A program made the translations under genes and the position numbers. The notes below the pieces were generated by a model. The model made no database searches and was not told the origin of the DNA. It saw nothing but the letters and a program-made list of their open reading frames with translations. A stretch of DNA of 49,228 bases from Prevotella sp. (GTDB lineage Bacteria; Bacteroidota; Bacteroidia; Bacteroidales; Bacteroidaceae), in the NCBI GenBank assembly GCA_017557405.1, contig JAFYYV010000005.1, forward strand, positions 1 through 49,228. The letters are read 5' to 3'. Within the stretch, counting starts at the first letter, position 1, and the number at the start of each line of letters is the position of its first letter. Below are positions 11,446 to 48,057 of this stretch, piece by piece.

Positions 11446-11469
11446 AACTTGTCTTTCATTTTTTCAAGG

Positions 11470-11500: not shown

Positions 11501-11615
11501 ACGACGGGAAAGAATTTTATCCTATATATAATAATGTGTACCCCGTCCACCTCCAGCCGCGTTCGAACCCAAGAATGACGGCAAATGTTAAAACCGAAAA
11601 AATATGCGATAAATA

Positions 11616-11648: not shown

Positions 11649-11652
11649 CAGA

Positions 11653-12000: not shown

Positions 12001-12014
12001 CATGAAACAAGATT

Positions 12015-13673: not shown

Positions 13674-13682
13674 ACATCAAGA

Positions 13683-13720
13683 ACGGGCGAAGCACATCTG
13701 ATGCTCCGCCCGTTTTTTTA
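13683..13720 (+). terminator. Terminator of the acidic AAA+ gene
   Basis: ACGGGCG (13683-13689) pairs with CGCCCGT (13707-13713) and is followed by seven T. It separates the gene from the convergent transporter. Confidence 0.9.
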
Positions 13721-13741
13721 TTTCCTGTTATGTCTTCGTTA

Positions 13742-18000: not shown

Positions 18001-18701
18001 ACCGAAGCTTCCACCGCAAACTCCTGTTCGTGGAAATCAATGGCCTCGCGTTCACTCGTGTCCACCAATGCTCCGATGGCCGCCAGATGTCGGGTGGCAA
18101 CGCGTTCCATCTCAATCTGCACCTCCCGATTGCGAGGGTTCACATAGTCGAACTGCCGCTCTCCACTCCGTCGCAAATCGCGTTCCTGTTCGGTATAGAG
18201 GAACTCGTGCAGATGCACCAACTCGCCTCGCCTACTCAGGTAGAGCCGCAAGTCATAGAGGGCTGCGAAACGATAGTCGTCAGTTGCCTCCGACGCCCAA
18301 TCCTTCAGCATGCTACCCCTAACGAGCCACAACGAACCGAAATCGAAATCGTCGCGAATGGAACCCAGTTGATAGTCGATGACGGGATGACGGCGAGTCT
18401 CCTCACCCCTCACCTCCCATCGGTCGGCATACACCATCGCGGCATTCGTTTCCTCAGCCACACGCACCATGCGTTCCAGCGCCCGAGCGCCAATCTTCAA
18501 CGGCACGTCCTTCAGGCACAACAAAGCATATTCGCTATCCAGAAGCTTGGCAACATTGCGCAAAGCATCGGTTGGCATCAGCGCTCCCAATGCCACTTGG
18601 TTTATATTCTGCACCAACTTGTCTTCCTGCAGTTGTTCGGCCACCTGGTCGGCAACAACCTTGTCAACATCCGACAAGAAGCAATCTATAATCTGTCTCA
18701 T
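15024..18701 (-). CDS. Giant fusion: glycosyltransferase GT2, HIT-like DUF4922, SpoIID
   Basis: The 1225-residue protein has four parts. Residues about 35-200 look like a degenerate GT-A fold. Residues 232-445 are a GT2 transferase: [24 protein letters not shown] and the metal-binding QLDSDD (DSD 328-330). Residues about 500-800 fit DUF4922 and contain a HIT/GalT-like HGHLQ motif (625-629) and CFLC (546-549). Residues about 815-1225 are SpoIID/LytB, seen in [20 protein letters not shown] and [16 protein letters not shown]. No signal peptide is visible, odd because SpoIID normally cuts cell-wall glycans outside the cytoplasm. The AmpG-like gene starts within its end. Domain calls are good; the combined activity is unknown. 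Confidence 0.88.
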
Positions 18702-32380: not shown

Positions 32381-32454
32381 GTGCCCGTAGTTCAGTTGGT
32401 TAGAGCGTCAGATTGTGGTTCTGAATGTCGTGGGTTCGAGTCCCACCGGGCACC
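32381..32454 (+). tRNA. tRNA-His (GTG anticodon)
   Basis: A full cloverleaf is visible. The acceptor stem GTGCCCG pairs with CGGGCAC, with C73 and a G at 32380 that would form the histidine-specific G-1:C73 pair. The D arm is GTTC/GAGC. The anticodon stem TCAGA/TCTGA has loop TTGTGGT, giving anticodon GTG. The T arm is GTGGGTTCGAGTCCCAC. No CCA is encoded. The accessory island begins just after its 3' end, a standard integration position. Confidence 0.97.
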
Positions 32455-32463
32455 CTTCAAGAC

Positions 32464-32656: not shown

Positions 32657-33643
32657 TTATTGAAACTTCTTCTCACCTCTCATCGCATCTTCGTACATGC
32701 CAATTGCAAATCGTCTTGGTTCTTCAAGTTTATCATACATGACCTTAATCTCAGGAACAAGGTTCATATAATCTACGATGAAAATGCTCATAAATGCCAG
32801 AACACATTGTGTTGCATGTTTTGCCATCTCCTTGTCTGCACGATATTCGTCTTTATATGCATCTCGAAATTGGATTAGTGATAAATAAGACGGATGCCCA
32901 TGAAGGCTGAAGAAAGAATAAAGATTATCAAAAAGATTCTCCTTTACATTTAGCAATGTGTAAGCCTTTTCATATTGAATATATTCCATAGTATTATCCT
33001 CCTTAAAAATATAACGGAATTTCTTCCCATTTCCAAGGGCATTATCAATTGTCGCTTTTGTTTGCTTGTCTAGGGTCTTATACAACTCTGTGTCTTCTAT
33101 CGCCTTTCTACAATCATCGATATCATTCTGTTCTTCCTGTACCCTTGTAGGATTATGACTACGCATCTTTTCATCTAAGTCTTTTAACCTTTCTGACAAG
33201 CCTTGAGCCATAAATAGATTATAAATAATAGTTTGTTGATCATCTGTCTTTGGAAGGACAAACAATAGTTCAAATGCGATAAGAGATTCATATACACTCC
33301 TTGCGATAGTAAAAAGAATAGAAAAGTCTATTATGGGTTTAAGACGGATAGTACCTTTAGAATATCCGACACCATCGAGCAAAGATATAAATTGGCATCC
33401 TTTGCTAAACATGGTTTGCATCCAAATATTCCGGTCGTCTTCTATATAAGAGTTCGCTTTACGTCCCTCTGGTGACTTTATAACATCGAAGTAGAAATCA
33501 AGTATCACCCGCAAATACTGTTTGCAATCGCCAATTGTATCCAACTGTACAAACTTACGAACCTCTTCGATTGTTAGCTCTTTTTCAACTTTTCCCTCAA
33601 ATAGAACTGACAGTTTCTTAAGCTGTTCCTCACTTAACTCCAT
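32657..33643 (-). CDS. Hypothetical helical protein, 328 residues
   Basis: The protein is almost wholly helical, with no membrane segments or catalytic motif I can identify. Recognisable stretches include VRKFVQLDTIGDCKQYLRVI and FSLHGHPSYLSLIQFRDAYK. The latter (helix-HGHPS-helix) resembles the conserved core of DUF5677/HEPN-like proteins, which occur in mobile and defence loci. Its ATG is 3 nt after the stop of the upstream AlbA_2 protein, so the two are certainly co-transcribed and may act together. It is the last island gene before the tRNA-side hairpin. Confidence 0.8.
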   Translation of the reverse strand: MELSEEQLKKLSVLFEGKVEKELTIEEVRKFVQLDTIGDCKQYLRVILDFYFDVIKSPEGRKANSYIEDDRNIWMQTMFSKGCQFISLLDGVGYSKGTIRLKPIIDFSILFTIARSVYESLIAFELLFVLPKTDDQQTIIYNLFMAQGLSERLKDLDEKMRSHNPTRVQEEQNDIDDCRKAIEDTELYKTLDKQTKATIDNALGNGKKFRYIFKEDNTMEYIQYEKAYTLLNVKENLFDNLYSFFSLHGHPSYLSLIQFRDAYKDEYRADKEMAKHATQCVLAFMSIFIVDYMNLVPEIKVMYDKLEEPRRFAIGMYEDAMRGEKKFQ

Positions 33644-33646
33644 TTC

Positions 33647-35239
33647 CTATTTTTCGATCTTGATAACCCATTTACCCTCCTTACGTCCATCTTGACGCTC
33701 GATATTAATGCCAAGTTTCCTAATAGCTGTAAACTCTCGTTGGATAGTCTTATCGGACACCTTAAGCTTTCTGGACATTTCTATCAGAGTCGCTTCTGGT
33801 GATGTGTATATCAGTTCTAGTATAACTACCTGTCTTTCAGACAGTTCTTTTAGGACATCTTTCTGGACATCTTTTAGGACATCCTTCAGGACATCAGGGA
33901 TGTTCTTGGTCATTTCCTGTGATCTATCCTTTATCTTCTCTCTTGTCGCTATGTCAGCAATGACATTGCCTGCTGCTTCATGACAGGGAATAGTGATGCG
34001 GAAGAAGGTACGCTCTTCGTCCGTAACGACGACGGCGCGAGGTGAACCGTTAGCCTTCAGCACATTTTGGATGGTGGGAATACCCGTACTTCGTCCTTCG
34101 GTCAACTCCAGTTCCTTCAAGTATTCACCCAAACGACGGTTGCGATAACGCTTGGAGATAAGCAACTCTCCACGACTGATGTCTGCAGACGGGATGCTAC
34201 GGTCTGGCCCACCTACGTTCTGAATGGTAATACCCTTTGGTTCGACCGTTATCACAACAGGTTCCCACTCGCGATAATCGCGATGATAAAGTGAGTTTGT
34301 CACACTCTCTTCCAATGCCTGGTAGGGATAGGTGTAGAACTTGATACTGTGGTTATCATTCTTGGGCTTAATGATGGACTGCATCACCACCATGCGATTC
34401 AGATACTCCAGAGTTCGCTCGATAATCTGTGTGACAGAGCCAGTGATAATAGGTGCCTCGTACATATTATTAGGATTCACCAACCGTCCTTCTGGAAAGA
34501 ATACGACTTCAACCTGTGTCCGTTTGAAGAACTTGCTGGGATTCTCACAGAACATCATAGCAGCTACATTCCTCAGCATACGGTTCTCTGATGGACCCAC
34601 ATACAAGTCCATCTGCTCCAGAATCTCGCCCAGTGGCCTTTCATATAACTCGTTAGCCAACTTACTGCCCACTTTAACCAGATACTCACGGAGCAATAAC
34701 GTAGATATGTCTTCTACTTTGATGTCCGGATTACCCCTTTCGTCAAACGGCACACGGCTGGCTAGTTCGCGAAGTTCGTCCAGCACCTCACCCTTAGCGA
34801 TGATACTGCTTGTACCACTGCGAATGTAGAAATAATCTTTGCTACCACTCTTTGCCGTCACATTTTCAGGCACAGAGTAAGGACGATTGATGCCGGCTGG
34901 ACACCAAATCACCAGTACCTGCTTTCCATCCACTTCCTCAACGCTAGTCCTAGGCATGTAATATGGTGACATCTTGTTGTTATAGCCTACCATCTCCTGA
35001 AGGATGCCGTCGATCTTTTCAACGGGTACACCCTCCACGGGACGGATGGCCATACCCGTATCGTCATCAGTGTCAACACCTACCACAATATATCCACCGC
35101 CAAGATCGTCGAAATCATTGGCGAAAGCACATACACTATGGTATATGCTTACTGGATTCCAACCTTTCTTGAACTCAATCCTATTGGACTCAATCTTATG
35201 CTTATTCAGCAAGTCTTCTATATTTATTGCCAGTGCCAT
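33647..35239 (-). CDS. Schlafen AlbA_2 domain protein with winged-helix end
   Basis: The 530-residue protein begins with an AlbA_2 nucleic-acid-binding domain: RIEFKKGW, then CAFANDFDDLGGGYIVVGVD (about residues 20-55). A GHKL-like ATP-binding region follows near 310-410 (ALEESVTNSLYHRDY, TIQNVGGPDRSIP, EGRSTGIPTI). The last 60 residues are a winged helix (TLIEMSRKLKVSDKTIQREF). Between them DVLKDVLKDVQKDVLKEL is a short repeat encoded by near-identical GGACATC units. Such proteins are common in islands as regulators or in defence. TAATTTTG on the minus strand at 35263-35256 is a likely -7 box. Confidence 0.9.
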   Translation of the reverse strand: MALAINIEDLLNKHKIESNRIEFKKGWNPVSIYHSVCAFANDFDDLGGGYIVVGVDTDDDTGMAIRPVEGVPVEKIDGILQEMVGYNNKMSPYYMPRTSVEEVDGKQVLVIWCPAGINRPYSVPENVTAKSGSKDYFYIRSGTSSIIAKGEVLDELRELASRVPFDERGNPDIKVEDISTLLLREYLVKVGSKLANELYERPLGEILEQMDLYVGPSENRMLRNVAAMMFCENPSKFFKRTQVEVVFFPEGRLVNPNNMYEAPIITGSVTQIIERTLEYLNRMVVMQSIIKPKNDNHSIKFYTYPYQALEESVTNSLYHRDYREWEPVVITVEPKGITIQNVGGPDRSIPSADISRGELLISKRYRNRRLGEYLKELELTEGRSTGIPTIQNVLKANGSPRAVVVTDEERTFFRITIPCHEAAGNVIADIATREKIKDRSQEMTKNIPDVLKDVLKDVQKDVLKELSERQVVILELIYTSPEATLIEMSRKLKVSDKTIQREFTAIRKLGINIERQDGRKEGKWVIKIEK

Positions 35240-35315
35240 AATCCTATTTCGATTGCAAAATTAGTCATTTATTCTTAATTATAGGTAAATATACTAACTT
35301 CTTAACCCAATTACT

Positions 35316-36329
35316 TTATCTCCTTTTCTTAATTTTCTTTTCAACGGGTCGCTTTTTATACTTATGAACACATTCTTGTATATATGAATCGCGTCCCCTT
35401 TGTTCCATAAGTTTTTGTATGACATCAAAAACTGAATTTGAATATTTATGGATAGGATTCGATTTTGTTCCTTGTTTAATTTCGGTATGTCGCTTGGGTT
35501 TATTTTTCAAATCCAAACAGAAAATAATCGCTTGCATTTCATATGAATTCAATCCCAACTTAACTTGAAGCTCTTTTGTCGTTAAAGGATACATCGCGTT
35601 CGGGTCAATCGCAGCATTGTCAACATCAATTAGTCCTTCTATTGTCCCCACCAATTTTAATGTAGGACATCCTTCTCCTTCTTTTTCTGTAAAATGTCCT
35701 TCTCGTATGAATGTCAACTGGTCTAATAATGACTTATCCAAAAGGACTTTTTTATCTCCGTAGGAGATCTCGCCATTATATCTATCTAATATATGGACAT
35801 TTCTTGGCCCAACCATTGATATTCTTTCTATATGCTTCATCCACAGAATTCGTTCTTTTTCCCTTTCATCTTCCAAGATTCGATTCAACTCAGGATATTC
35901 TATCTCTTTTGTTTCCCCTCTATATCTGTAATAAATAGCACCCTCTCGTAAAACCTCCAACTTATTCTTTTTACATACAATAGGCTTTATGGAAGCTTCT
36001 TCAACTGACAACATACCGAATGGCTTGCCTTGAAAATCCTGAAAAGCCACATTCCATTTAATTCCTGGTGCAAAATATTCACGGATTCTAGAATCTATCT
36101 CTTTCGGATCTATTTCATGAAGTTTCATGTTGGTCATACCTGTCGGTATATGAGGACTATTTTGGACACCAAAGATAATCTGGCCCCCTTTATTATTCGC
36201 CATGCCGACCAATGTCTTAATATATTTCAGAAGATTATCACCTAACTGAAAGTTTTGCTTGTACTCCAAATTAAAACTTTCCCTTTTTTTTAGGTACCCT
36301 CTGCTATCCAATTCAAATGTAAATGCCAT
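35316..36329 (-). CDS. Second Schlafen AlbA_2 domain protein
   Basis: The 337-residue protein carries an AlbA_2 domain at residues about 15-140: RESFNLEYKQNF, then IKTLVGMANNKGGQIIFGVQ and EVLREGAIYYRYRGETKEI. The C-terminal half (about 155-337) is not a GHKL module and ends in a very basic tail (KKRPVEKKIKKRR), suggesting nucleic acid contact. A winged-helix-like piece may lie in YPLTTKELQVKLGLNSYEMQ. It follows the TIGR02391-type gene by 5 nt, so they are one unit, and it is separated from the 530-residue paralogue by 76 nt. Confidence 0.85.
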   Translation of the reverse strand: MAFTFELDSRGYLKKRESFNLEYKQNFQLGDNLLKYIKTLVGMANNKGGQIIFGVQNSPHIPTGMTNMKLHEIDPKEIDSRIREYFAPGIKWNVAFQDFQGKPFGMLSVEEASIKPIVCKKNKLEVLREGAIYYRYRGETKEIEYPELNRILEDEREKERILWMKHIERISMVGPRNVHILDRYNGEISYGDKKVLLDKSLLDQLTFIREGHFTEKEGEGCPTLKLVGTIEGLIDVDNAAIDPNAMYPLTTKELQVKLGLNSYEMQAIIFCLDLKNKPKRHTEIKQGTKSNPIHKYSNSVFDVIQKLMEQRGRDSYIQECVHKYKKRPVEKKIKKRR

Positions 36330-36334
36330 ATATG

Positions 36335-37141
36335 TTATCTAATTTTATGTGCATTATCTAATCTCCTGTGACAATAAGATATAATTCCCAATATCTCAAG
36401 AGCATCTTGTTCTGCAATAATCCAATCGACTTTTGGTTCATGGGCTGTCGGATTTCTGAACATAGCACAGAGTCCTTTCAAGAGGTTGCAGAATCCATTG
36501 TGTTCATTTTTCTCTGAAGACGATTGGTAATTGTTGATGATTAGGATTGGATTAGAACTAAAGACTTGCTCTATCAAGGCGTTCCCGTCAGTATTTATGT
36601 CTGACAAATCACGTATTCGTTGAAATAAGCCTTTGTTTGCTTCCAATACAGAATGAAAATAATTGTTTTGTAACAATTCCGCTTTGCAGTATTTAAAAAC
36701 CTCTTTATGAGCTTTCCGATTTTCCAGTTCTTGTTTAAGATTCTCTACTTTTATTTGTACATCAGAAATAGTATTGGCAACCTGTATCTCTCGATACTTA
36801 CCATCTGCTTTTAATTCATACCCGACAAAGGCTAATTGTTGATTGATGGCATTGCGTAGTCTCTCAAACTCTTTTTGAGCGTTCACAAACCTAGAAGGGG
36901 CAAGAACAAGACTCACGAAAATCAGAATCTGATTTGAACATTTATTCTTATTTTGTTCGTTTGCTAAAGCATTATAAAGGCGATATCGCTTAGTCATTGT
37001 CGGGTCTGTATCCTCAATGTTTGCTTGTAACAAGAAATGATGGATTTCAGAACCAGTCAATCCTTGATTTGTATCACCTAAAGTATTACAAATCATCTCC
37101 AATACATTTGGAGGTAAACATTTTCGAAATATTGTTGCCAT
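36335..37141 (-). CDS. TIGR02391 (Ymh)-type protein
   Basis: From the ATG at 37141 the product has 268 residues; an in-frame TTG start lies five codons upstream. The C-terminal half includes NGFCNLLKGLCAMFRNPTAH, then EPKVDW, and ISYCHRRLDNA. The FRNPxAHE phrase is the hallmark of the TIGR02391/Ymh family, reminiscent of HEPN-type helices (R-N-x-x-x-H). The N-terminal half is helical with a coiled-coil part (VQIKVENLKQELENRKAHKE). TIGR02391 proteins are frequent in defence islands and restriction neighbourhoods; an RNase activity is plausible but unproven. Confidence 0.82.
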   Translation of the reverse strand: MATIFRKCLPPNVLEMICNTLGDTNQGLTGSEIHHFLLQANIEDTDPTMTKRYRLYNALANEQNKNKCSNQILIFVSLVLAPSRFVNAQKEFERLRNAINQQLAFVGYELKADGKYREIQVANTISDVQIKVENLKQELENRKAHKEVFKYCKAELLQNNYFHSVLEANKGLFQRIRDLSDINTDGNALIEQVFSSNPILIINNYQSSSEKNEHNGFCNLLKGLCAMFRNPTAHEPKVDWIIAEQDALEILGIISYCHRRLDNAHKIR

Positions 37142-37163
37142 ATAGCTTTCTTTCAATACTAAA

Positions 37164-37436
37164 CTACAAATTCATATAGTCTTCACGCAGTCTGCTTTTC
37201 TTAAAAAACAATCTGCTCTGTGGAGTATTCCCTTTTCTGTGAGTTAGATGATTCTTTATTTGATAAACTCTGCCTCGAGAAATATTTAGAATCTTGGCTG
37301 CTTCTTCTGCAGACACCCAATCGTCGTCATCACTTAGGATAGGTGCATCTTTTTGCTCCAATAGTAATTCTACAACTCGTTTGGCAATTGCCTCAATATC
37401 ATCTTTGTATAGTCTCACCGCTATATTGTTATCCAA
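37164..37436 (-). CDS. Small helix-turn-helix protein (excisionase/MerR-like HTH_17)
   Basis: The 90-residue protein has an acidic, helical first part, then WVSAEEAAKILNISRGRVYQ followed by IKNHLTHRKG, an HTH_17-type DNA-binding domain as in excisionases and small plasmid regulators. It could be the excisionase of the island or a local regulator. It lies between the chaperone-like block and the TIGR02391-AlbA_2 block, 27 nt after the pseudokinase-AAA gene. Confidence 0.82.
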   Translation of the reverse strand: MDNNIAVRLYKDDIEAIAKRVVELLLEQKDAPILSDDDDWVSAEEAAKILNISRGRVYQIKNHLTHRKGNTPQSRLFFKKSRLREDYMNL

Positions 37437-37463: not shown

Positions 37464-39233
37464 TTATTGCGTAAACCCTATTGGTTTCCTGTCAATATGG
37501 TTCTCAAACTCCTCACGTAACCTCTCATGCTGTTTCAGCACATCTTTAGAAACGGATGGGAACTGGTTCTTATATTTTTCTATCGTATCGAGGAGAGTTT
37601 GCATGCTAATAAACTCCAAATCTGCTTTGGCTGTTTCACGAGCTGCATTGTTAATGAGTGAACACACGTCCTTTGATACGTAGCCTTCTGTTTTTTGCGC
37701 CAATAGATCATAGTCCACATCATCAGCAACAATATCTTTTAAATACAATTTAAACAAAGCTGCTCTCTCTGACTCATCAGGTGCAGGGACATAAACCTTT
37801 ATGTCAAGTCGACCTGAACGTAGAGCAGCACTGTCAATGCCTTTTGGATTATTAGTTGCTCCAATTACAAAAACGTGGTTATCTGCACAGTTATTCAACT
37901 GGGTCAGGAATTCGTTAACTTCTCCGTACTCAGATACATTATTATGTCTTGAACGATCTGCAAGCATGGCATCTAACTCATCCAAGAAAAGGACAGTAGG
38001 AGCATTTTCTTTTGCTTTTTCAAATAAAGCGGCAATTTTTTCTTGCCCACCATGGATATAGGGTGATGCCACATCGGAACAGTGTACATACATATAATTG
38101 CACCCAACCTCTTCTGCAAACTTTTCAGCAATATAAGTCTTACCGCAACCAGGAGGGCCATAAAGAAGGATTCCATTGGGTATTTTAACTCTTAGTCGTT
38201 TATACTTTTCTGGATTCTTGATAATATCAATTACTTCTTCACTTAATCTTTTCTTTAGTTCATCCATACCAGCGACATCAGCGAAACCATTGCCTTTTTT
38301 CTCCTGCTTTGTTACGGCGGGAGTTTTTGTTTTGGCTGGAGCAACATCGAATTTTTCGAAATTAGAACAAACAATGGATTTTTCGCCCTCCAATGCTTGC
38401 AAAAATTCATCCGCGTTTTGAAATCTTTTATCAACATCTTGCATTAATGCCTTTGCTATGACATTAATAAGTTGTTCATCCATTTCAAACACTTTAATAT
38501 CAGGAATAGGTAGAGGTCTCTGGCGTGCAGACAGAATAATTTGTTCCCTATCTTTAAGAGGAACATCTCTAAGGTCAACTTCCCAAGGTTGCATTCCATA
38601 AACCAGATGATACATCAATGCACCAACAGCGTATAAATCAGTACGTGTTGAGTAAAGTCCCTTAAACATTTCCGGTGCAAGATAGAAGGGCGACAAACCA
38701 TTCATATAACATTTCAAATTCTCCTTATTCAACTTCCTTGCATGATCAAAGTCCATAAGCAATGGTATTGGGGAACCAGAACTAAGATTAAGCATAATAC
38801 TATTCGGAGATATCCCATTAAATATTATCGGATCCTTTTGAGAATGAAGGTATTTTAAGGCATTTAGGACTCCGGTAACGATGTGTTTCATGTCATAAAT
38901 AGAGCATCCGCCTTTCCTTGAGATGTTTTCTGACAACAATTCTCCTGGTATAAAGTCGGAAACAGAATATGCATACCGCTGTCCGTCAATAATCGTTTCT
39001 CCAGAATCAATTTGTCGCATAATATTTGAGTGAGATACTTCTCGTTTCATTTCAATCTCACAAATTTGGCCAGTTGCTATATTAAATTGTAATTCATCCA
39101 ACTTAGCCAAATTGATGAGTTTCAAGAAATACTTCCCACCTTTGGCATCAACAACTCTATAGACATCGTAATATGAGCCTTTCCTTAAAAGAAAGACTAC
39201 CTTATATTGCTCTATTGCTGATAAATTCGACAT
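37464..39233 (-). CDS. Pseudokinase fused to AAA+ ATPase
   Basis: The 589-residue protein joins a protein-kinase fold (about 8-285) to a classic AAA+ ATPase (about 315-560). In the kinase half, the ATP Lys is kept (FLKLI, K38) and APE is present (186-188). The catalytic HRD is FNG (138-140), the metal-binding Asn five residues later is Ser145, DFG reads DFD (161-163), and the Gly loop is eroded. Phosphotransfer is therefore unlikely. In the AAA half, Walker A GPPGCGKT (359-366), Walker B VLFLDELDA (414-422) and GATNNP look intact, closest to FtsH/Cdc48-like rings. It follows the Hsp70 gene by 26 nt and probably acts with it. Confidence 0.9.
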   Translation of the reverse strand: MSNLSAIEQYKVVFLLRKGSYYDVYRVVDAKGGKYFLKLINLAKLDELQFNIATGQICEIEMKREVSHSNIMRQIDSGETIIDGQRYAYSVSDFIPGELLSENISRKGGCSIYDMKHIVTGVLNALKYLHSQKDPIIFNGISPNSIMLNLSSGSPIPLLMDFDHARKLNKENLKCYMNGLSPFYLAPEMFKGLYSTRTDLYAVGALMYHLVYGMQPWEVDLRDVPLKDREQIILSARQRPLPIPDIKVFEMDEQLINVIAKALMQDVDKRFQNADEFLQALEGEKSIVCSNFEKFDVAPAKTKTPAVTKQEKKGNGFADVAGMDELKKRLSEEVIDIIKNPEKYKRLRVKIPNGILLYGPPGCGKTYIAEKFAEEVGCNYMYVHCSDVASPYIHGGQEKIAALFEKAKENAPTVLFLDELDAMLADRSRHNNVSEYGEVNEFLTQLNNCADNHVFVIGATNNPKGIDSAALRSGRLDIKVYVPAPDESERAALFKLYLKDIVADDVDYDLLAQKTEGYVSKDVCSLINNAARETAKADLEFISMQTLLDTIEKYKNQFPSVSKDVLKQHERLREEFENHIDRKPIGFTQ

Positions 39234-39259
39234 AAACGCACATTTTAGAATTCAAAAAA

Positions 39260-41809
39260 CTATTTTTGCTGGCGCAACAACCCCGCGTTCTGCGGCTTTT
39301 CACTACGAGGAAGCATATCTGCAAGTTCGTAAGCGATTGGCTTCAATTCTTCAGCGGTTGCCTTACCTGATTTGATAATTTCAAGACCTTGATTGATAAG
39401 ACTCCTTGCACGAGAAGGATTTGACCATTTCTTTTGATTAAAGTTTCTGTTCCACTGATTTATCCATGACACGTAAAACTCCACTTCTGCCAATTTATAA
39501 TCCATTTGCCACAATTGATCATATAATTGCTCTGCTGCCGCCATATCTTTGGCTGCAATAACACGATCAACGTCTTGCTTCAGATTCTGAATAATAGTAG
39601 TGGTTTTGTCGTTCCCGTATTTCCTGTTGTCTTCGGATAGATAACGATACATTCCCAGCAACTTGTTTTCCATTCGTTGCCAATCACCAAGAGAATACTC
39701 TGTATCAATTTTTGCCAGGATCTCTTTGAGAGATTCCAGTGCTTGCTCTTTTTGATCCCTGTCTTTGTTCTCTGCTGCCTCAAAACCTTCTGAAGCTTCA
39801 TCAAGTTCTTGATACAGGGAAGCATTGTCTAATGTTTTTAGTTTCTTTCTTGCTTCTTCAATTTCTGCAATGTATATGGATGCATCAGCAATTTTAGAAG
39901 TTACATTGGTTATTCTTTCTGTGATGTCAATATCCATATTTAAGTATGGTATATCAACCATAAAATTGTCAATTGTACCAGATTTGTCAGCATGAATGGT
40001 AACATTTATTGTACTGCCTACAGGCAATACAGAAGGAATGTCATCGCCTGTAAAATAGCAATCATAGAGATGGGTACAATATATCCTCTTAAGTTTCTTA
40101 TGCTCTTTATTTAAACTGTCTATATCTTGGTCTGTTTGTAGGATAGGGAATATGACTTTATCTGAAGTCATACCTGGCCTTATTTCACAGTCAGTAACCA
40201 TCTTTATCTTCCCGTTTTTACCATATGCAGGCAGTGGTAGGTTTTTCTTAAGACCTTCTAACGGTGTGAATACTACATCGTCATCATCATCAACGGTAGC
40301 TATACCAAGATACTGAGGAAGAATAGCATCTCCAATGCCGTCAATTCCCTGTATGATAGTGATTTCATGCGGTTCACACTCCAGCTTATTTCCCTTTGAA
40401 TCATAGCAACGAATCTCAAATACATTTGTCGAATCTGCTTTTAGTCTTAATTCTAATGCATCGCCTTTCGAGTCGATTAAAACACGACCTGTGTTAAACT
40501 CGCCATCGGTTCGAACCAAGTCAACATAAACGGCATTTTCTTCGTAACCCTCGCTTTTTTCTTTGAGGAACTTTACTGCAGCAAATTCAAATTCTTCAAC
40601 AGATGTGCTTTTAACAGCAACTTGCAGCTGGATCTTTGAAAAATCACGTCGCTGTTCCATTAATTTTTCGGGTACATCTATTGTGCTTCCATACAGTGCA
40701 GCACCACATGCCACAGCTGTCATTGGATCAATACTCGTATCGACATTGGGGGTTACTTGTTCACGGAGCATTCTTCTCAGAATGGGGGAATGAGTTGGAC
40801 CGCCAACCAAAATTAAAGCACCAAGGTCTTTTCCAGAAAGATTATTACGTTCCAATAACTTATTTGTTATGTCAATTGCTTTTTGGAAAATCGGCGCAGC
40901 AATAGGTTCAAGGTCTTCTTGGGTGATGGTAAGGTCAAGTTCAAAATCTACTCCATTATCATCACAACCATATTCATCGCCTAAATCTGTTAGCAATGCA
41001 TATGTATCCTGGAAAGACAAAGCGATCTTCGCTTCTTCTGCCTTTGGTTTCCACATTGTGATAAAAGCATCTTTCTTTGCACACTCTAATATGTCATATT
41101 CGCGAGACAAGTGAGGTATTATTATTTGCTCAACTATAGCAATATCAATATCTTTACCCCCAAGATGATTGTTTCCAGCAGTATCTATAGCTTTCATTAT
41201 GCCATCCTCAATATGCATGAGAGCTGCATCGAAGGTTCCACCTCCAAAATCGAAAACCAACCAATATGCATTCTTCATCTTAGAAGCCAATCCATACGCC
41301 ACAGATGCAGCTACAGGTTCTTGGATTAGTTCATAGTGATCAAATCCAGCCATCTCGGCGGCACGTTTTGTGGCATCCTTCTGGTTGTTGTTGAAAAGTG
41401 CAGGGACAGTAATTACAGCTTCTTTTACTTCATCATCCAAAACATAACTTCGTAGGGTCTTTAGTACCTCAGAAGAAAGCTGTTCTGGTGAGAGGTATGG
41501 GGATTGGCCACTTTTCTCCAGATTATAACTATACAGGGTCTCGTCAGTTCCCATTATTCGTTTAAATTCGACGAATGTATTGCGATGATACCCCTCTTTG
41601 ACAAAACTTAAAGCCCAGTCTTTTCCTAACTGAGAATATGCTTTTGCTCCAACAAGCATACGTCCCTTCGGATTTACTGTCACACAGGAAGGCGTGGTAT
41701 CTCCCTGAACAGGACTTTTTTTAATGACAGCCTGACCATTTTCAAATCTTGCTATGGCAGAGTTCGTTGTTCCCAAATCAATGCCATAAATAATTTTGTT
41801 GTTTGTCAT
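39260..41809 (-). CDS. Hsp70-family ATPase with long divergent C-terminus
   Basis: This 849-residue protein has a complete Hsp70/DnaK nucleotide-binding domain (1-380): IIYGIDLGTTNSAIARF, VPALFNNNQKDATKRAAEMA, IQEPVAASVAYGL, VFDFGGGTFDAALMHIEDG and LVGGPTHSPILRRML. The ATPase motifs look active. After about 390, a beta-type region replaces a normal substrate domain (canonical DnaK has about 640 residues in all). A long helical region from about 640 to the end contains repeated Trp (LYDQLWQMDYKLAEVEFYVS). It is not housekeeping DnaK. The GrpE-like gene lies 11 nt upstream and the pseudokinase-AAA gene 26 nt downstream, which points to a dedicated chaperone complex. Confidence 0.92.
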   Translation of the reverse strand: MTNNKIIYGIDLGTTNSAIARFENGQAVIKKSPVQGDTTPSCVTVNPKGRMLVGAKAYSQLGKDWALSFVKEGYHRNTFVEFKRIMGTDETLYSYNLEKSGQSPYLSPEQLSSEVLKTLRSYVLDDEVKEAVITVPALFNNNQKDATKRAAEMAGFDHYELIQEPVAASVAYGLASKMKNAYWLVFDFGGGTFDAALMHIEDGIMKAIDTAGNNHLGGKDIDIAIVEQIIIPHLSREYDILECAKKDAFITMWKPKAEEAKIALSFQDTYALLTDLGDEYGCDDNGVDFELDLTITQEDLEPIAAPIFQKAIDITNKLLERNNLSGKDLGALILVGGPTHSPILRRMLREQVTPNVDTSIDPMTAVACGAALYGSTIDVPEKLMEQRRDFSKIQLQVAVKSTSVEEFEFAAVKFLKEKSEGYEENAVYVDLVRTDGEFNTGRVLIDSKGDALELRLKADSTNVFEIRCYDSKGNKLECEPHEITIIQGIDGIGDAILPQYLGIATVDDDDDVVFTPLEGLKKNLPLPAYGKNGKIKMVTDCEIRPGMTSDKVIFPILQTDQDIDSLNKEHKKLKRIYCTHLYDCYFTGDDIPSVLPVGSTINVTIHADKSGTIDNFMVDIPYLNMDIDITERITNVTSKIADASIYIAEIEEARKKLKTLDNASLYQELDEASEGFEAAENKDRDQKEQALESLKEILAKIDTEYSLGDWQRMENKLLGMYRYLSEDNRKYGNDKTTTIIQNLKQDVDRVIAAKDMAAAEQLYDQLWQMDYKLAEVEFYVSWINQWNRNFNQKKWSNPSRARSLINQGLEIIKSGKATAEELKPIAYELADMLPRSEKPQNAGLLRQQK

Positions 41810-41820
41810 ATCCTTATATT

Positions 41821-42165
41821 TTATTCGTTATATTCGATAATTACTTCTGCAGCTTGAATCAGTTTTCCTTGGTAGGAAACTTGTGGCTTAATAACTCTTT
41901 TAATGCGATTAGTATTTGGCGGTAGTTCTGGATTCAGTTCCAGTGTTCCAATCATATTGTCTCCTTCGTGATACGAATGCCCAACCAAATCGGGAATGTC
42001 GTACTGGTTACTATTTAATGTGGCATATATAGACTTTATGCGGTTTTTTAACTGGGACACTCCCTTCACGGAATCATCCATATATTCAAGATTTTGTTGC
42101 ATTCTTGTTATATCATTAATGATAGCAAGAACTACATCATGGTTTATTAAAGTCATATCTTCCAT
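41821..42165 (-). CDS. GrpE-like small protein (putative Hsp70 exchange factor)
   Basis: The 114-residue protein has a helical first half (about 5-55) and a beta half. The end of the beta half, RIKRVIKPQVSYQGKLIQAA then EVIIEY, has the rhythm of the GrpE beta-domain end (V..V..PG....G..I..A.V.V). With an adjacent Hsp70 gene (11 nt), I infer a reduced nucleotide exchange factor; typical GrpE has 170-200 residues, so the long helix pair is mostly missing. It is 8 nt after the upstream membrane protein. The GrpE relation rests on pattern and context only. Confidence 0.6.
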   Translation of the reverse strand: MEDMTLINHDVVLAIINDITRMQQNLEYMDDSVKGVSQLKNRIKSIYATLNSNQYDIPDLVGHSYHEGDNMIGTLELNPELPPNTNRIKRVIKPQVSYQGKLIQAAEVIIEYNE

Positions 42166-42173
42166 TCTATTTA

Positions 42174-44762
42174 TTATTTAATAAGTGCTGCCAATTTTGC
42201 TAACCATCGAATAGGGAAACCAATAAAACCGATAGTCAATGCGAGTATTTGGAAAGGTATAGCAAATGGCCATGAATATGTTTTACCATCACGAGCTCCG
42301 GCCATTGTTATTTCGTTTGCAATTTTCATCAAGCCATCATAAGCCTTTTCAATCCATACAAATTCAGTATCGTATGGGTCTTCTTGGAACTTCAATCCCC
42401 ACATAATAATAATAAAAAGCGCAACTAAGACCATGAATATTATACAAATATAACCCCACCATGGCATAGTATCCATAAAATACCCCCAATTATTATTATA
42501 TCTCAAATACATCCACATTACAAACAAAAAAACAAGAGCTCCAAACGTACAAAAACCCTTAACGAATTGCCGTGATGAATCTTCTTCTTTTGTTCTCTGA
42601 TAGTATTTATATGATTTTTTTGTATCTTGAGAATAACCATAATTTCCCATACTAATTGCTGCTCCAATATTATGTGTAATTATTTCAAGGTTCTTTTCAA
42701 GCCTTTTTTTGGTGTTGGGATGCATATACATCCTTTTAACTTTTTGCATTAATTCGCTTGCTCTATAGGCTGACGCTGCGTCATTTTCTTTATTGCAAAT
42801 TGATATAATTATATTTAATAATTCATTTACTACTCGGTCTGATATATTCTTGTATAGTTCTGAATCTTTCCCTGTCATTATATTAATCCCAACAACGTGC
42901 GAAGAAACGTCGGTATACAGTTTCTCTACTTCGGAAAAATTAATACTAGTATTCTTGAAGTTACTAAATTTGGATTCAATATCGTTACAAAGTTTTTCTA
43001 TTCTAGCAGCCTGATCGTTCCTTTTGAAAATTCCCACATTCTCTTCACATCTCTCGCGAAGGTTCTCGTCTGTGACTACAGTTAATGCATAAGTAGCATA
43101 TTTCAGTGCAGTTGCCGGCGCGCTATAATCTTCTTTTTTATCATTATTGAAATGAATCGCATAATTTAACAACTTTTCTGCAACCTCATTACATAGTAAT
43201 TTGTATCTGTAATTATCATCGCCTACTAGTCTCTTGATTCTGGTAAGAACAATCGGTGCTTCTTTAACAATTTTATCATATACCTTTCTACTTTCCTCGA
43301 AATCGTTTTCATCCTGATTTGTAGCATACCTTAGCATATCTTTAATTGGCGCCTCATAAATGTCAAACCCCTTTTTTCTGTTGTATTCTTTATCTTTTTC
43401 TGGGAGGATTCTTTCGTTAAGGCTTGCTTGCCCACTGCCATATTTTAAAACATCTTGTGTTGAAAGTTCTGTTTCTGGGAATTCATACAAGGTGTCCCAA
43501 AACATCTGGGACAATTCTTCTTCCGATAATTCAACAGCTCCATTAGAGATGACAGATACGAATTCTTTGCGGAAAGCCTCTTTATGAATAAGATTCAAAA
43601 TGCTAATAATAGCACTAAAATAATTCCGTTCAGCCAATTGCATAACAGCATCATTAATACAGGCAGAAAAATTAATCTTGTTAAACCATATATTTTTTGC
43701 TTCATACCATTTGTGCTCTGATAATAGTTTCAAAGCCTTCTCATCGTTTGGTGTATAGTTGCAAAACCAAAACAATGCATATTTAATCCGTTCCTTTTCC
43801 GAGGCTAATTTGGTTTTTGAATTAATGACATTCTCTTCATCTCTATTTGGATATATGTTCCATGAAGGAATATTCTGTTCAACAGATCTCCAATCCTTTA
43901 GTGTTTCCTTACATCTTTTGATATTCTCCTCAACAAATTCCCTTTGAGTGAAAACACTTTTTATTCTATCTTCTAAATAGTTAATCCTGTTTTCGTATTC
44001 TATTATGAAATCGGCAACGTCACAAGATATGAGATGATCAGACTCAAATGATGTTGTTTTTCCAACTTTAGACATTGCTTCTATTTTACTCAAATTTGCT
44101 CTTATTTCTCTTTCGGAAGAGTTGCCCCAAATCCCCAATATTCTATAGGGGTTGTTACCTAATATTTCGATGCTTTGCAAACTTGTGTCGAGAATTGGAT
44201 TGTATGTCTCCTTAATTGTTTCCAACTTCTGCTTGGCCTTCTCATTTTTACAACTACTATACAGTTTGCATGCCATAAAAAGAGATTTCGGAGTTCCTAT
44301 ACCCAATTCATAACATCTTGCTAAATTAAATTTAGCAATGTCATCGTTGTTTTGCCCTTTTTTATACCAATAAAACGCCTCTTCTGGATTTGCTTCAATA
44401 CTTGTTATATCGTCAATGTTAAAAGACTGAACAGAAATAATAGGATTGTATCCTTTCTCATATATTTCCCCAAGCATGTTAGCTGCTTTGCCAAATCCTT
44501 GATTTGCTGACTTCTTATACCACTCGATAGCAAGGCTGATATTCTTACCAACCCCAAATCCGTACTGGTAGTATCTGCCAGTATTATACTGGCCATATTT
44601 GTTCCCCTGTTTTGCGGAACGCTCAAACCAAGCAAAGGCTTCTTTCAGATTTTTGACAACACCATCACCTGAAGAATATGCACACCCTAGGTCGTTTTGG
44701 GCGCCGGCGTCACCAGCAAGTGCATCAGCTCGTAATATTTCTATATCTTCTTTTGTCTTCAT
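42174..44762 (-). CDS. Sel1-repeat membrane protein with J-like module
   Basis: The 862-residue protein opens with three to four Sel1 repeats (about 5-165; AFAWFERSAKQGNKYGQYNT and AIEWYKKSANQGFGKAANML are clear). Near residue 204 comes NPYRILGIWGNSSEREIRAN, then KIEAMSKVGKTTSFESD, a module also present at the N-terminus of the next protein upstream. It looks like J-domain helices I-II but has no HPD. A long helical region follows. Two transmembrane helices lie near 742 and 774, and a hydrophobic end near 835-858. The start is 6 nt after the upstream stop. A membrane-tethered client or cochaperone protein is the inference. Confidence 0.82.
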   Translation of the reverse strand: MKTKEDIEILRADALAGDAGAQNDLGCAYSSGDGVVKNLKEAFAWFERSAKQGNKYGQYNTGRYYQYGFGVGKNISLAIEWYKKSANQGFGKAANMLGEIYEKGYNPIISVQSFNIDDITSIEANPEEAFYWYKKGQNNDDIAKFNLARCYELGIGTPKSLFMACKLYSSCKNEKAKQKLETIKETYNPILDTSLQSIEILGNNPYRILGIWGNSSEREIRANLSKIEAMSKVGKTTSFESDHLISCDVADFIIEYENRINYLEDRIKSVFTQREFVEENIKRCKETLKDWRSVEQNIPSWNIYPNRDEENVINSKTKLASEKERIKYALFWFCNYTPNDEKALKLLSEHKWYEAKNIWFNKINFSACINDAVMQLAERNYFSAIISILNLIHKEAFRKEFVSVISNGAVELSEEELSQMFWDTLYEFPETELSTQDVLKYGSGQASLNERILPEKDKEYNRKKGFDIYEAPIKDMLRYATNQDENDFEESRKVYDKIVKEAPIVLTRIKRLVGDDNYRYKLLCNEVAEKLLNYAIHFNNDKKEDYSAPATALKYATYALTVVTDENLRERCEENVGIFKRNDQAARIEKLCNDIESKFSNFKNTSINFSEVEKLYTDVSSHVVGINIMTGKDSELYKNISDRVVNELLNIIISICNKENDAASAYRASELMQKVKRMYMHPNTKKRLEKNLEIITHNIGAAISMGNYGYSQDTKKSYKYYQRTKEEDSSRQFVKGFCTFGALVFLFVMWMYLRYNNNWGYFMDTMPWWGYICIIFMVLVALFIIIMWGLKFQEDPYDTEFVWIEKAYDGLMKIANEITMAGARDGKTYSWPFAIPFQILALTIGFIGFPIRWLAKLAALIK

Positions 44763-44768
44763 ATCTTC

Positions 44769-47681
44769 TTATTGTAATACGTTGTCAATATTAGCACTTT
44801 GCAATTTTAAATTACCATTGACAACAGGGTATAACGTATATTCCATATAAGCAGTTCGTTCCTGGATTTGTCCGTCATCCATTTCTATAGTTTCAGAAAT
44901 GAGCTGTATAGGACCGTCTTTTTGTGTAATGTCTCCTTCTACAAAACCACCTCTAAATTGCCCTACTTCCATATTCGGATTCCATCCATTTCCAGAGTAA
45001 AAATACACATCATAGGTGCCACTAGGAACATATAGGCGAGCTTTATCTCCTCCTTTGATATAGACGTGGTTTATGTAACTATTATTACTATGTCTTTTCA
45101 CGATTGCTATATAATCGCTTGAACCTGATGTTTTAAAATCAATGAAGTTTTTACCTGTCTTTGCTTTACCGAAATAGGATGCGTATGGTTTTGAACCAGT
45201 TTCTAATGAGTTATTACGGTAAGCATCATATGAATTATTAGTAGTTTCATTAGATTCCTGTTCATTGCTGTAGCCAGACTCTTTTTCAGACTCCACACTA
45301 TTGTCCAAGTTACCATCTGATATCTCACTATCATTCGATCCGTTTATATATGAATTAACATTATCTTCACTTTGATTGCTTTGACCTGAAGAATCAACAG
45401 TCTTTACCGTCGACATTGAAGGCTCGTATTCTCTCGTCCTTTGGATGGAAATTGCAATAAATCCAAAGAGAAACAAAATGCCAACAATCGAAGATCCTAC
45501 TATTATCTTTTTTTGTCGTCTGTCCCTTAAATATTTATTTGCTTCCTGAACATGAGTTCCTCGTGGATAAAGCCGAACATATTTTTTATAGTCGTCTTTT
45601 GTTTTACAGGATTCAAACCTCTTATCATCTATCAATTGATTGAGAGCTTTTACATATCTTCCATTGGGATATTGATGGAAGTATGTGTCATATTGCCCAG
45701 ATTGAAGAACCTGGGAATAATACAAATCCTCTATTTTATTAGTAGCCTTAATATGTAGCTTTCCTGATGGATATAGACTAACAAATCTATAATAATCATT
45801 TATGGTTTTACAGCGATTAAAGGCCTCTAATTCCTCCTTATCTTTTATCTCCTGAATATTCTTTTTGGCTTCTTCTCGATATAAACCATTGGGGAATTCT
45901 TTCAAATATTCTGTCCAGCCCTCAATGTTATGACACATTTTAAAAGAAGCTAAATCCAAACGCCCTAGCACAACTGATTTCTTTGGATGATCAGGCCACA
46001 ATCGCAACATAGTGCGATAGTCATAAACAGTTCCTAATGTACCTCGTCCTAAAAGCATCCTATCTAAAGAGTCAAGCATTTTCTGGTCGTTATGACTATT
46101 GGGGAACTTCTCTTTATATGCAAGTAAGGCCTTTGCCGTTAGCGAATAATCCTTGGGGTATTCGTCATCTTCTATTTTCCAAATACGCTGAATGGCTTCC
46201 TTAAAATGGGGGCTGTCAGGATAGGAAAGTGTAAAATCCACTAAAGAGTTATAATCATTGCATGATTTATAAATATCGTCATGGCTTTCAAGTGAAATAG
46301 ATGGCTTTGTGTCACCTACTTTAACCTTATTACGTTCGACGCAGTTGTCTATTTTATCTTTAAATTTGACAACCTTAGTAGTTCTGAATTCATCTTCTAT
46401 ATCTAAAACACAAATATCAACACACAATTGAGTGGCTTGCCCAAGGGCGTTTTTCAAGTTTGCTAATGCTATAACCTTGTCGTTTCCTGGATAATTAAGT
46501 TTCCTTTCTGCAGAATCAATTTCGGACTCCGACGCATAGAGTGCATTATCTGCAATCTGCGTAGAAATGCGTTTGTAATATGAGTTATCAACACCTAAGA
46601 TTGCTTTTATTTCAATCAAAGGGCTGACACAATTGCGTAATAACTGTAAAGACCACCGGGTCTCATTTGGTTTACTGCAGAAGACTTCGATTTCTTTTCG
46701 TATTATTGTTGAAAATGTGCTTACCTGAGGTGGTGCAAGAAATTGCACTTCCTTTTTAACCTCTTTTCCAAAAGTAGTACATTCTTCTTTTACCTTACTC
46801 GAATATGACAAACGATAGACTTCTCTTAATAAATCAAGAAGTTTCTCAACAGGCTTTGCCTCCCAGAACCGCGTCTCTTTATAATAATTCTTGCATGCAG
46901 CTAAGACGGCTTTAGCATATTTTGATAACACAATCTGGGCTTCGGCAGTTGGCTGCTTTGTTTGTAAGTTACTTGTTTCCTTAATTACTTCTATAACAGG
47001 TTTGGCTATATTATGTGCAGATGCAATTGACATATGGCCTTTGCTGTCCTTGCCCAAAGATTCCGTCTCAGATAGTTGACGAAGATAATTAATGGATTCT
47101 TTATTATATACTGAGGAAATAAACTCTAATGTCTTACTGTGCCCTTCTTCACGATTACAAACATCCCTTAGACGGGACCACCATACAAATGGAGGCCATT
47201 CGTACTCATCTTTGTAGCCGTTTTCCAATTCAACAAGGAACCTTTCTTTGGTTGATTCTGCAGGTGCATCATCACACTCGAATAAGCGAATTATATACTC
47301 TGAAGCAAGTTCTATGTTATCAGCGTAGAAAGCGCCAACTATTACATTTACTATACTTGCTTTACTGTTACCTCCAAATCCTGAATGTATAATATCGACC
47401 GGAGCTTTTGCCACTATATCTAATGACTGTAATCTATGAATCCATAGACTTGAATAGAAATCAAGGTCAGAATCGGAGGATAGTAATGATATTGCGTGTT
47501 CTATCGACTGTTCAGAACGATCAATAGGACCAAATATATCAGTAAAATCACTCTCGAAAAAACATTCTTTTCCCACCTTATTAAACGCACGTATCCTTGC
47601 AATGTTTGCAGTTTGAATCCTTACAGGATCGTTTGCAAACATTCCTATTATTCTAAACGGATTATGCGCTATAACATTCAT
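44769..47681 (-). CDS. Large membrane protein with N-terminal J-like module and C-terminal beta domain
   Basis: The 970-residue protein starts MNVIAHNPFRIIGMFANDP and continues with IARIRAFNKVGKECFFESD, the same module as in the 862-residue protein. Helical sequence follows. From about 480 to 715 come degenerate 30-45-residue repeats of the form YP(S/N/R)G....A...I (SLYPSGKLHIKATNKI, HQYPNGRYVKALNQL, RLYPRGTHVQEANKYL). One transmembrane helix is near 722-745, then a Ser/Asn-rich linker and a beta domain from about 835 (DYIAIVKRH, VYIKGGDKARLYVPSGTYDV). The topology would put the module inside and the beta domain in the periplasm. It heads the five-gene block. Confidence 0.82.
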   Translation of the reverse strand: MNVIAHNPFRIIGMFANDPVRIQTANIARIRAFNKVGKECFFESDFTDIFGPIDRSEQSIEHAISLLSSDSDLDFYSSLWIHRLQSLDIVAKAPVDIIHSGFGGNSKASIVNVIVGAFYADNIELASEYIIRLFECDDAPAESTKERFLVELENGYKDEYEWPPFVWWSRLRDVCNREEGHSKTLEFISSVYNKESINYLRQLSETESLGKDSKGHMSIASAHNIAKPVIEVIKETSNLQTKQPTAEAQIVLSKYAKAVLAACKNYYKETRFWEAKPVEKLLDLLREVYRLSYSSKVKEECTTFGKEVKKEVQFLAPPQVSTFSTIIRKEIEVFCSKPNETRWSLQLLRNCVSPLIEIKAILGVDNSYYKRISTQIADNALYASESEIDSAERKLNYPGNDKVIALANLKNALGQATQLCVDICVLDIEDEFRTTKVVKFKDKIDNCVERNKVKVGDTKPSISLESHDDIYKSCNDYNSLVDFTLSYPDSPHFKEAIQRIWKIEDDEYPKDYSLTAKALLAYKEKFPNSHNDQKMLDSLDRMLLGRGTLGTVYDYRTMLRLWPDHPKKSVVLGRLDLASFKMCHNIEGWTEYLKEFPNGLYREEAKKNIQEIKDKEELEAFNRCKTINDYYRFVSLYPSGKLHIKATNKIEDLYYSQVLQSGQYDTYFHQYPNGRYVKALNQLIDDKRFESCKTKDDYKKYVRLYPRGTHVQEANKYLRDRRQKKIIVGSSIVGILFLFGFIAISIQRTREYEPSMSTVKTVDSSGQSNQSEDNVNSYINGSNDSEISDGNLDNSVESEKESGYSNEQESNETTNNSYDAYRNNSLETGSKPYASYFGKAKTGKNFIDFKTSGSSDYIAIVKRHSNNSYINHVYIKGGDKARLYVPSGTYDVYFYSGNGWNPNMEVGQFRGGFVEGDITQKDGPIQLISETIEMDDGQIQERTAYMEYTLYPVVNGNLKLQSANIDNVLQ

Positions 47682-47690: not shown

Positions 47691-47912
47691 CTAATGTAAA
47701 AATTGTTTGTTTACGTCAGACTCTACCAGTAAATCTTTAATGTCTACTTCTAAGAGTCTTGCTATTTCCAAAAACGTCTCAATGCTTGGCTGAGTAGTAT
47801 TAGTACACCACTTTGATACTGTTGCAGGATCTTTTCCCAATGTCTCTGCCAGCCACTTACTAGTCTTTTCCTTTTCAACCAAAACGATTTTAAGTCTATT
47901 TATCTTTGCCAT
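47691..47912 (-). CDS. XRE-family HTH regulator
   Basis: From the ATG at 47912 the protein has 73 residues: a compact XRE/Cro HTH (KWLAETLGKDPATVSKWCTN followed by TTQPSIETFLEIARLLEVDI). The upstream frame to 47960 is discarded because TATATTTG on the minus strand at 47945-47938 is a likely -7 box, putting the transcript start after those codons. It precedes the chaperone-like genes by 9 nt on the same strand, so an autoregulated repressor of the whole operon is the simplest reading. Confidence 0.87.
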   Translation of the reverse strand: MAKINRLKIVLVEKEKTSKWLAETLGKDPATVSKWCTNTTQPSIETFLEIARLLEVDIKDLLVESDVNKQFLH

Positions 47913-48057
47913 ACGGTAGTAATAATTGAATTTTTCGCAAATATAATGAACAATTAGCAAACTACCTAATTTTCACCGAAATATTTTGTATAATTCACAA
48001 ATTATCGAAAAAATAGGAAATTTAAGGACGAGAAATAACATCTCGTCGTTCAAGAAA

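Follow-up and report, generated by a model that had tools for sequence, protein, structure and literature searches.

Judged from sequence, the conserved unit represented in this Prevotella sp. contig is a block of J-like, GrpE-like, Hsp70 and kinase-AAA genes, usually accompanied by a TerB-like gene. We give an even chance to the reading that this cassette is a horizontally moving, insulated Hsp70 machine at the inner membrane, with anti-phage defence as its probable role. The window analysed is the entire stretch of 49,228 nucleotides, in which a sequence-only reading had singled out five genes as a candidate undescribed system.

All five open reading frames lie on the minus strand where that reading had placed them, at 37464-47681, with intergenic gaps of 6, 8, 11 and 26 nt by ORF coordinates. 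G1 (44769-47681; 970 aa) has an N-terminal J-like module lacking the HPD motif, an alpha-solenoid, one membrane helix and an extracytoplasmic beta-domain. It is followed by G2 (42174-44762; 862 aa), which carries Sel1 repeats, a second J-like module and hydrophobic C-terminal segments recognised by eye, and by G3 (41821-42165; 114 aa), a nucleotide exchange factor with the GrpE fold. G4 (39260-41809; 849 aa) is an Hsp70 whose ATPase residues are intact but whose J-docking residues are altered and whose C-terminal part has diverged, and G5 (37464-39233; 589 aa) joins a pseudokinase to a classic AAA ATPase. A small XRE/Cro-type regulator (47691-47960, minus strand), also anticipated, ends 9 nt ahead of G1, scores 36 bits to Pfam HTH_3 and is probably the operon's first gene. 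XRE homologues stand immediately upstream of the J-like gene in loci L050, L053 and L089, and some close relatives retain them. Separate DnaK-like, GrpE and DnaJ genes are present elsewhere in the window's genome.

The operon sits in AT-rich DNA, as had been claimed, with a GC content of 0.32-0.40 at 35-48 kb vs 0.51-0.57 at 15-31 kb (one bin, at 24 kb, is 0.42). Downstream come a small helix-turn-helix protein (37164-37436, minus strand; HTH_17 22.8 bits, below the cut-off of 27) in the place where most relatives have TerB, then a TIGR02391 protein (36335-37156, minus strand; 110 bits vs a cut-off of 39) that is also PADLOC PD-Lambda-3_B (248 bits), two Schlafen proteins of the AlbA_2 type (SLFN_AlbA_2 in Pfam; 33647-35239 and 35316-36329, minus strand) and DUF5677. 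The predicted Schlafen- and TIGR02391-type neighbours were thus found, and the run from DUF5677 to PD-Lambda-3_B (32657-37156) adjoining the operon is defence-like. Beyond it lie tRNA-His and genes such as secG. We considered the tRNA-His (32381-32455) as a plausible integration site and rejected it, finding no tRNA repeat of at least 14 bases within the window. On the other side, an ORF cut by the contig end (48058-49227, minus strand) matches no Pfam family and may encode the C-terminal end of a MobV-type relaxase. It matches, with 63 bits, the C-terminal portion of a protein of 677 aa near the cassette in L042 (884-2917); the N-terminal part of that protein resembles a MobV relaxase by eye.

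Relatives were collected by a genome scan with an alignment of the Hsp70 C-terminal part, and 251 were confirmed by tblastn. The best 80 of the 251 are loci L050-L129, a set that overlaps another set of relatives (L050, L089 and L090 coincide with L038, L039 and L040). Gene content was counted at the 51 loci that had 4.5 kb or more of flanking DNA upstream and 5 kb or more downstream. J-like and GrpE-like genes were present at 51/51, the kinase-AAA gene at 48/51, a TerB-like gene at 43/51 and all four at 42/51. The kinase-AAA gene of L126 was scored as missing through overlap of its ORF start with the Hsp70 but is present, so the true count is likely 49/51. No kinase-AAA gene lies in the span tested at L085 and L129, and no TerB-like gene at L065, L084 and others. 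The order J-like, GrpE-like, Hsp70, kinase-AAA was found in 9 of 12 fetched regions, another of which, L047, has the GrpE-like end of the cassette where its contig stops.

Co-occurrence in conserved order therefore extends beyond close relatives, the Hsp70 C-terminal part being mostly 30-40% identical among them, and members have not been lost singly in most genomes, since 42/51 loci have all four. Searches with two different genes point the same way. Among 247 genomes of the phylum, the GrpE-like protein and the full kinase-AAA protein matched the same five genomes, including the window's own; in one of these (G515) the two genes are on different contigs. In the kinase-AAA search, full-length matches reached E 3e-111 or better and were cleanly separated from plain AAA proteins, none of which did better than E 2e-50. 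Across 52 loci, protein distances of the Hsp70 correlated with those of the AAA (r 0.71), GrpE-like (0.80) and TerB-like (0.60) proteins, with 0/999 permutations as high. Species relatedness contributes to this correlation, so it demonstrates joint inheritance and not interaction. The five genes proposed as a set stand in the window, but the usual unit adds the TerB-like gene, which the window lacks.

We next consider the Hsp70. Pfam HSP70 matches G4 with 230 bits over residues 8-375 only. The residue numbers used here for Hsp70 sites we take to follow DnaK numbering. Catalytic residues D8, T11, K70, R71, E171, D194 and T199 are kept in 74/74 sequences, in keeping with the proposal of an active-looking Hsp70. 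The C-terminus had been read as unlike that of DnaK; compared with one DnaK sequence, it gave a collinear but weak HHalign match (1.3%, E 0.039), at which a substrate-binding domain is not recognised. The J-docking surface has changed throughout the family: the position of DnaK R167 is R in 1/74 sequences and otherwise E (66), Q (6) or H (1), N170 is replaced by Q in 74/74, and T173 is replaced by I, V or N in 74/74. R167 of DnaK and the HPD motif of the J domain have roles in J-Hsp70 contact, according to the available portions of two papers (PMC7289447, PMC4022485), and the first of these, in the same portion, describes the DnaK R167H / DnaJ D35N suppressor pair as point mutants used to study J-driven Hsp70. 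Contact residues being changed in both the J-like module and the Hsp70, we suggest that this Hsp70 cycle is insulated from DnaK and DnaJ, that is, private. In L104, a second diverged Hsp70 (770 aa) and a protein resembling KilA-N by eye are found between the Hsp70 and the kinase-AAA gene (11743-14882).

Establishing J homology needed profile comparison because Pfam DnaJ gave no match in G1 or G2; nor was it among the families listed for 30 J-like proteins (best 25 of 60). A profile of 78 J-like modules aligned to 17 true J domains in HHalign at 91% (E 1.1e-6), while six column-shuffled controls all gave 0.7% or less. This bears out the J-like module that had been read as common to G1 and G2. 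None of the 78 modules (0/78) has the HPD motif. The module occupies residues 1-80 of G1 (47442-47681, minus strand), where the HHalign result is joined by helices at residues 8-12, 20-36, 57-68 and 70-77 of the structural model, and about residues 198-290 of G2 (43893-44171, minus strand), where it is identified by its match to G1. Against solved structures, the J-like alignment matched mostly TPR and other helical proteins. Foldseek matched the whole G1 model to helical-repeat proteins, with no J domain among the 50 matches listed, a list in which the small module cannot compete. The two J-like proteins read in the window are present there but are unusual: 44/51 relatives have one J gene, six have two and one has four. 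L129 carries four tandem J-like genes (3537-8385) ahead of the GrpE-like and Hsp70 genes, and no kinase-AAA or TerB-like gene was found nearby. A lysine gained by J-like proteins opposite E167 proved true of one J subtype only and was dropped.

Outside the J-like module, the description of G1 and G2 as large membrane proteins rests for G1 on a segment seen by eye that fits a model helix at residues 734-746, and for G2 on segments seen by eye. G2 matches Pfam Sel1 with 98.7 bits; G1 has no Pfam family at E 1. Behind the membrane helix of G1 is the beta-domain, at about residues 845-950 (44832-45149, minus strand), modelled with pLDDT mostly 50-81 and bearing a weak Foldseek resemblance to the pilin FctB (E 0.012). 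Of the 80 loci, 14 have it, eight as a fusion with the J protein and six as a separate gene, and it also occurs without the cassette in L044 and in one plasmid and one phage record. These two records were the yield of a G1 search of plasmids and phages, each matching in the C-terminal domain only, and no G1 relatives were found in viral contigs. Searching 301 genomes of the family with G1 gave 35 matches, many limited to the repeat region; of eight regions taken from them, six have the cassette, L044 lacks it and L045 has a J-like match only.

The assignment of G3 was decided by fold comparison because sequence profiles were negative or weak. Pfam GrpE did not match G3 and matched 5 of 29 aligned members, at best 7.4e-7, a value to which coiled coil may contribute. 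HHalign did not link the GrpE-like domains to six true GrpE sequences (0.2%), and the matches listed for the GrpE-like alignment against solved structures (60 of 166) were mostly coiled coils. In contrast, the 12 best PDB matches of the AlphaFold model in Foldseek were all GrpE chains, six with E no higher than 0.001, and the earlier suggestion of a small GrpE-like protein is thereby upheld for a protein in which Pfam sees no GrpE. Most relatives of G3 are larger: 26 of 28 aligned are longer, at 292-385 aa or 171 aa, and most have a signal peptide, a coiled coil and a membrane helix when read by eye.

G5 combines Pkinase (96 bits) and AAA (121 bits) matches in Pfam, and its kinase HRD motif is FNG in the window, so the pseudokinase-AAA fusion was correctly recognised. 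Its AAA part keeps the Walker A and B motifs, sensor 1, the arginine fingers and the pore aromatic. For the TerB-like gene, Pfam TerB matched 26 of 27 members (best 5.5e-6), and two members scanned singly fell below the cut-off. The TerB-like profile matched 2h5n, a hypothetical protein, in the PDB (E 3.6e-4) and the COG3793 tellurite-resistance protein (E 0.33). Like the window, its nearest relatives L050 and L053 have no TerB-like gene, and this profile, in a search run without a positive control, found no TerB-like match in the window's genome. Other genes come and go. DUF6804-like proteins occur in 17 of the 80 loci L050-L129; one of this kind, at 14226-14525 in L048, scores 121 bits in Pfam, and we found no mention of DUF6804 in the open-licence PMC literature. 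A zinc-ribbon gene lies between the Hsp70 and AAA genes at three loci, the one in L066 being Pfam CpXC. We regard these variable genes (beta-domain, DUF6804 and zinc-ribbon) as candidate sensors or effectors.

Of the 80 best relatives, 71 are labelled Bacteroidota or its subgroups, or carry labels too general to exclude it, and nine fall outside. The nine are the isolates Shewanella sp. 1CM18E and Aliidiomarina sp. B3213 and metagenome-assembled genomes of Melioribacteraceae (Ignavibacteriota), Ignavibacteria, Bdellovibrio, two Clostridia, Akkermansiaceae and Candidatus Ectomicrobium (Elusimicrobiota). Contamination is possible in metagenome-assembled genomes, so the spread is firm only to Pseudomonadota. 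Phage records contained neither the Hsp70 C-terminal part nor a whole kinase-AAA protein.

A more distant family was found on five proteobacterial plasmids (Pseudomonas, Aminobacter, Sinorhizobium, Shewanella and Polaromonas), whose Hsp70s score 332-430 bits to the family profile and, by motif, have R at the 167 position in 0/5. Each adjoins a protein of 117-123 aa. Taken as a set, these proteins match the GrpE-like domain in HHalign (95.8%, E 7.8e-9) and do not match true GrpE, J or TerB profiles; a single GrpE-like profile against one of them gave no match at E 10. By eye a J-like protein is present at all five loci, and the J profile gave no match to the proteins there at E 1. The GrpE link of this family accordingly comes from HHalign and the J link from inspection. 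Two of the loci have an AAA protein with an N-terminal part that does not match the kinase. These are L213 and L214, the Shewanella and Polaromonas plasmids, with a GrpE-like protein, Hsp70 and the AAA protein with a different N-terminal part; the Shewanella set adjoins Tn7-like transposition genes and the Polaromonas set is near zorA.

A further check suggested was whether the cassette clusters in defence islands or near integrases. Eight defence neighbourhoods, represented by ten proteins picked by eye from maps, bear on the first. In L060, a BREX operon has the whole cassette and two extra genes (2141-18629) inserted between its brxC and pglX genes, the cassette beginning 30 nt after brxC and the insert, with its two extra genes, ending 1210 nt before pglX. 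Near the cassette elsewhere are type I restriction genes (L056, L114 and L122), GajA of Gabija (L079), a ThsB-like TIR protein (L075), PbeA/PbeC (L105) and RhuM (L104); in these seven neighbourhoods the distance to the closest core gene is 32 to 2023 nt. A gap of 13 nt separates the cassette's end from a convergent brxL-pglZ block on the Haliscomenobacter plasmid pHALHY02, where a SIR2 gene lies upstream of the cassette. The defence partner differs between loci, and no single one recurs in more than a few of those examined. PADLOC families at 1e-20 numbered 66 in 130 flank proteins (from 226, at 45 of 46 loci) vs 12 in 130 control proteins (from 277, in 18 regions of nine genomes), a contrast that is suggestive only and overstated, since PADLOC families are redundant and the controls were not matched by genome. 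Integrases are few: among the best 25 of 136 Pfam families, many flank proteins are housekeeping, with Phage_integrase in 3/130 and Relaxase in 2.

A search of the open-licence PMC literature, with subscription papers and bioRxiv outside its reach, found no described system with this gene set, and within that literature the claim of an undescribed system holds. At E 0.1, PADLOC 2023 matched neither G1 nor G3 nor the Hsp70. G2 had one weak match (Csx19, E 0.0014), and G5 matched kinase and AAA models such as IetA (127 bits), mad6 and PD-T4-6, each over a single domain (best 25 of 39). The main text of DefensePredictor (PMC13092281), in the portion available, mentions no Hsp70, DnaK, DnaJ, TerB or chaperone. 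On this evidence the cassette looks new as a system, while its parts belong to known families.

Several known systems share some of these parts. Like the DnaK/DnaJ/GrpE triad, the cassette joins in one operon an Hsp70 ATPase that has every catalytic residue checked, a GrpE fold and a J homologue, but it lacks HPD and R167/N170/T173, its C-terminal part is not recognised, it has membrane tethers and pseudokinase-AAA and TerB partners, and it is mobile and patchy. DjlA of E. coli, in the accessible text of PMC11709261, is a membrane-anchored J protein with a TerB-like domain that depends on DnaK and GrpE in Rcs envelope signalling. The cassette differs in that its relatives have J and TerB as separate genes, and in its HPD-less J, dedicated Hsp70 and GrpE, and pseudokinase-AAA. 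Kaur 2020 (PMC7159879) comes nearest in print with a predicted, GTPase-centred conflict system, in which GAP1-N2 GTPases accompany HSP70, GrpE and a DnaJ or TPR-FNIII protein. Those systems are described there as mainly from Actinobacteria and Firmicutes, whereas the partner ATPase here is an AAA. The only NTPase families listed in the window operon are Hsp70 and AAA (for G5, best 25 of 32), with no GTPase, and FNIII was found neither in G1 and G2 nor among the families listed for 30 J-like relatives (best 25 of 60).

Resemblance is looser in two other cases. Shango, as presented in an extract of PMC10250203, is an anti-phage system in defence hotspots that shares a TerB-like protein and an ATPase with the cassette, but it has three genes without Hsp70, GrpE or J and includes a DEAD/DEAH helicase; no such helicase is found among the five window proteins or in the relatives' conserved cassette. 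CoCoNuT type III, as described in PMC11090510, places an Hsp70-like NBD/SBD in a predicted defence system together with a McrB-like GTPase, coiled coils, and HEPN or other nucleases, and its Hsp70 is predicted there to hydrolyse ATP very poorly, whereas the catalytic residues are intact here. Neither a McrB-type GTPase nor coiled-coil nuclease genes are among the five operon proteins.

Conserved order and content in the relatives support the view, put forward for the window, that a chaperone cycle complete in itself is held at the membrane and coupled to a remodelling ATPase. In the mechanism we favour, the J-like solenoid and the extracytoplasmic and membrane parts would sense an infection- or envelope-derived signal, and the J-like protein would load a client onto the private Hsp70, which the GrpE-like protein would reset. 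The AAA ring, addressed via its ATP-binding pseudokinase, could then take the Hsp70-bound assembly apart, either dismantling a viral complex or freeing an effector. Candidates for the latter may be the DUF6804 membrane protein, the lipoprotein-like beta-domain gene, and the zinc-ribbon or KilA-N-like proteins. With such insulation, ordinary heat shock would not set off the trigger. Precedents for defence or signalling roles of the parts support a defence reading: DjlA, the TerB-like protein of Shango, and DnaJ, through which bNACHT25 senses phage in the account available from PMC12169576. Several observations weigh against it. At the level of sequence, no known effector domain is recognised in the core, nor is a substrate-binding domain in the Hsp70 C-terminal part; a few loci have no kinase-AAA or TerB-like gene in the span tested, and the beta-domain is also met apart from the cassette; TerB and J also serve envelope signalling without phage; and the flanks hold many housekeeping and few mobility genes, with no phage record having the Hsp70 C-terminal part or a whole kinase-AAA.

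Transmissible loci for protein quality control and stress tolerance, such as the set of ClpK, small Hsp and FtsH-type protease, offer a model for the main rival, to which we assign a clearly smaller though real probability. It holds that the cassette is mobile stress proteostasis, with an extra Hsp70, GrpE and J and an AAA unfoldase rescuing or clearing damaged membrane proteins, and that location in defence islands merely reflects the gathering of accessory genes. A full chaperone triad with an AAA ring that has its pore aromatic and arginine fingers is consistent with this, as are the many ordinary flank genes and, from the text available on DjlA (PMC11709261), the joining of TerB and J in envelope signalling. 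However, loss of HPD and R167 on both sides would be odd for a general chaperone, and the pseudokinase fusion, the patchy distribution (5/247 genomes) and insertion in BREX or near restriction, Gabija and TIR genes also count against this rival.

We think it improbable that the cassette acts in envelope assembly or surface-protein export, with J-like/TPR and GrpE-like proteins holding clients at the inner membrane, Hsp70 and AAA delivering them, and beta-domain proteins as product or receptor. The apparent signal peptide, coiled coil and membrane helix seen by eye on most GrpE-like proteins fit such a role, as do the beta-domain fused to J or in a separate lipoprotein-like gene at 14/80 loci and its faint likeness to FctB. 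Yet 0/13 recurrent neighbour clusters were recognised by eye as outer-membrane, pilus or secretion genes, and the beta-domain was not found in 66/80 loci. Least probable of all is that the cassette has no activity of its own and regulates an adjoining defence system, for example by gating BREX or restriction through chaperone-controlled assembly, as its place inside the BREX operon of L060 and beside brxL-pglZ on a plasmid might suggest, since its partners vary by locus and none recurs in more than a few.

Returning to the insulated, defensive Hsp70 machine, we put slightly below even the broader proposal that it represents a new Hsp70-based class of immunity or conflict system. The J-Hsp70 interface, altered on both sides, would act as a private switch with exchangeable outputs (pseudokinase-AAA, another AAA, TerB, membrane or lipoprotein modules), in at least Bacteroidota and Pseudomonadota, on plasmids and once beside Tn7-like genes. 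If this is true, mobile bacterial Hsp70 machines would be dedicated switches and not general chaperones, and a chaperone-plus-AAA architecture would join the defence systems. The paired loss of HPD and R167/N170/T173 offers a natural experiment on the way J domains drive Hsp70, and the idea that immunity guards proteostasis would become testable in one operon.
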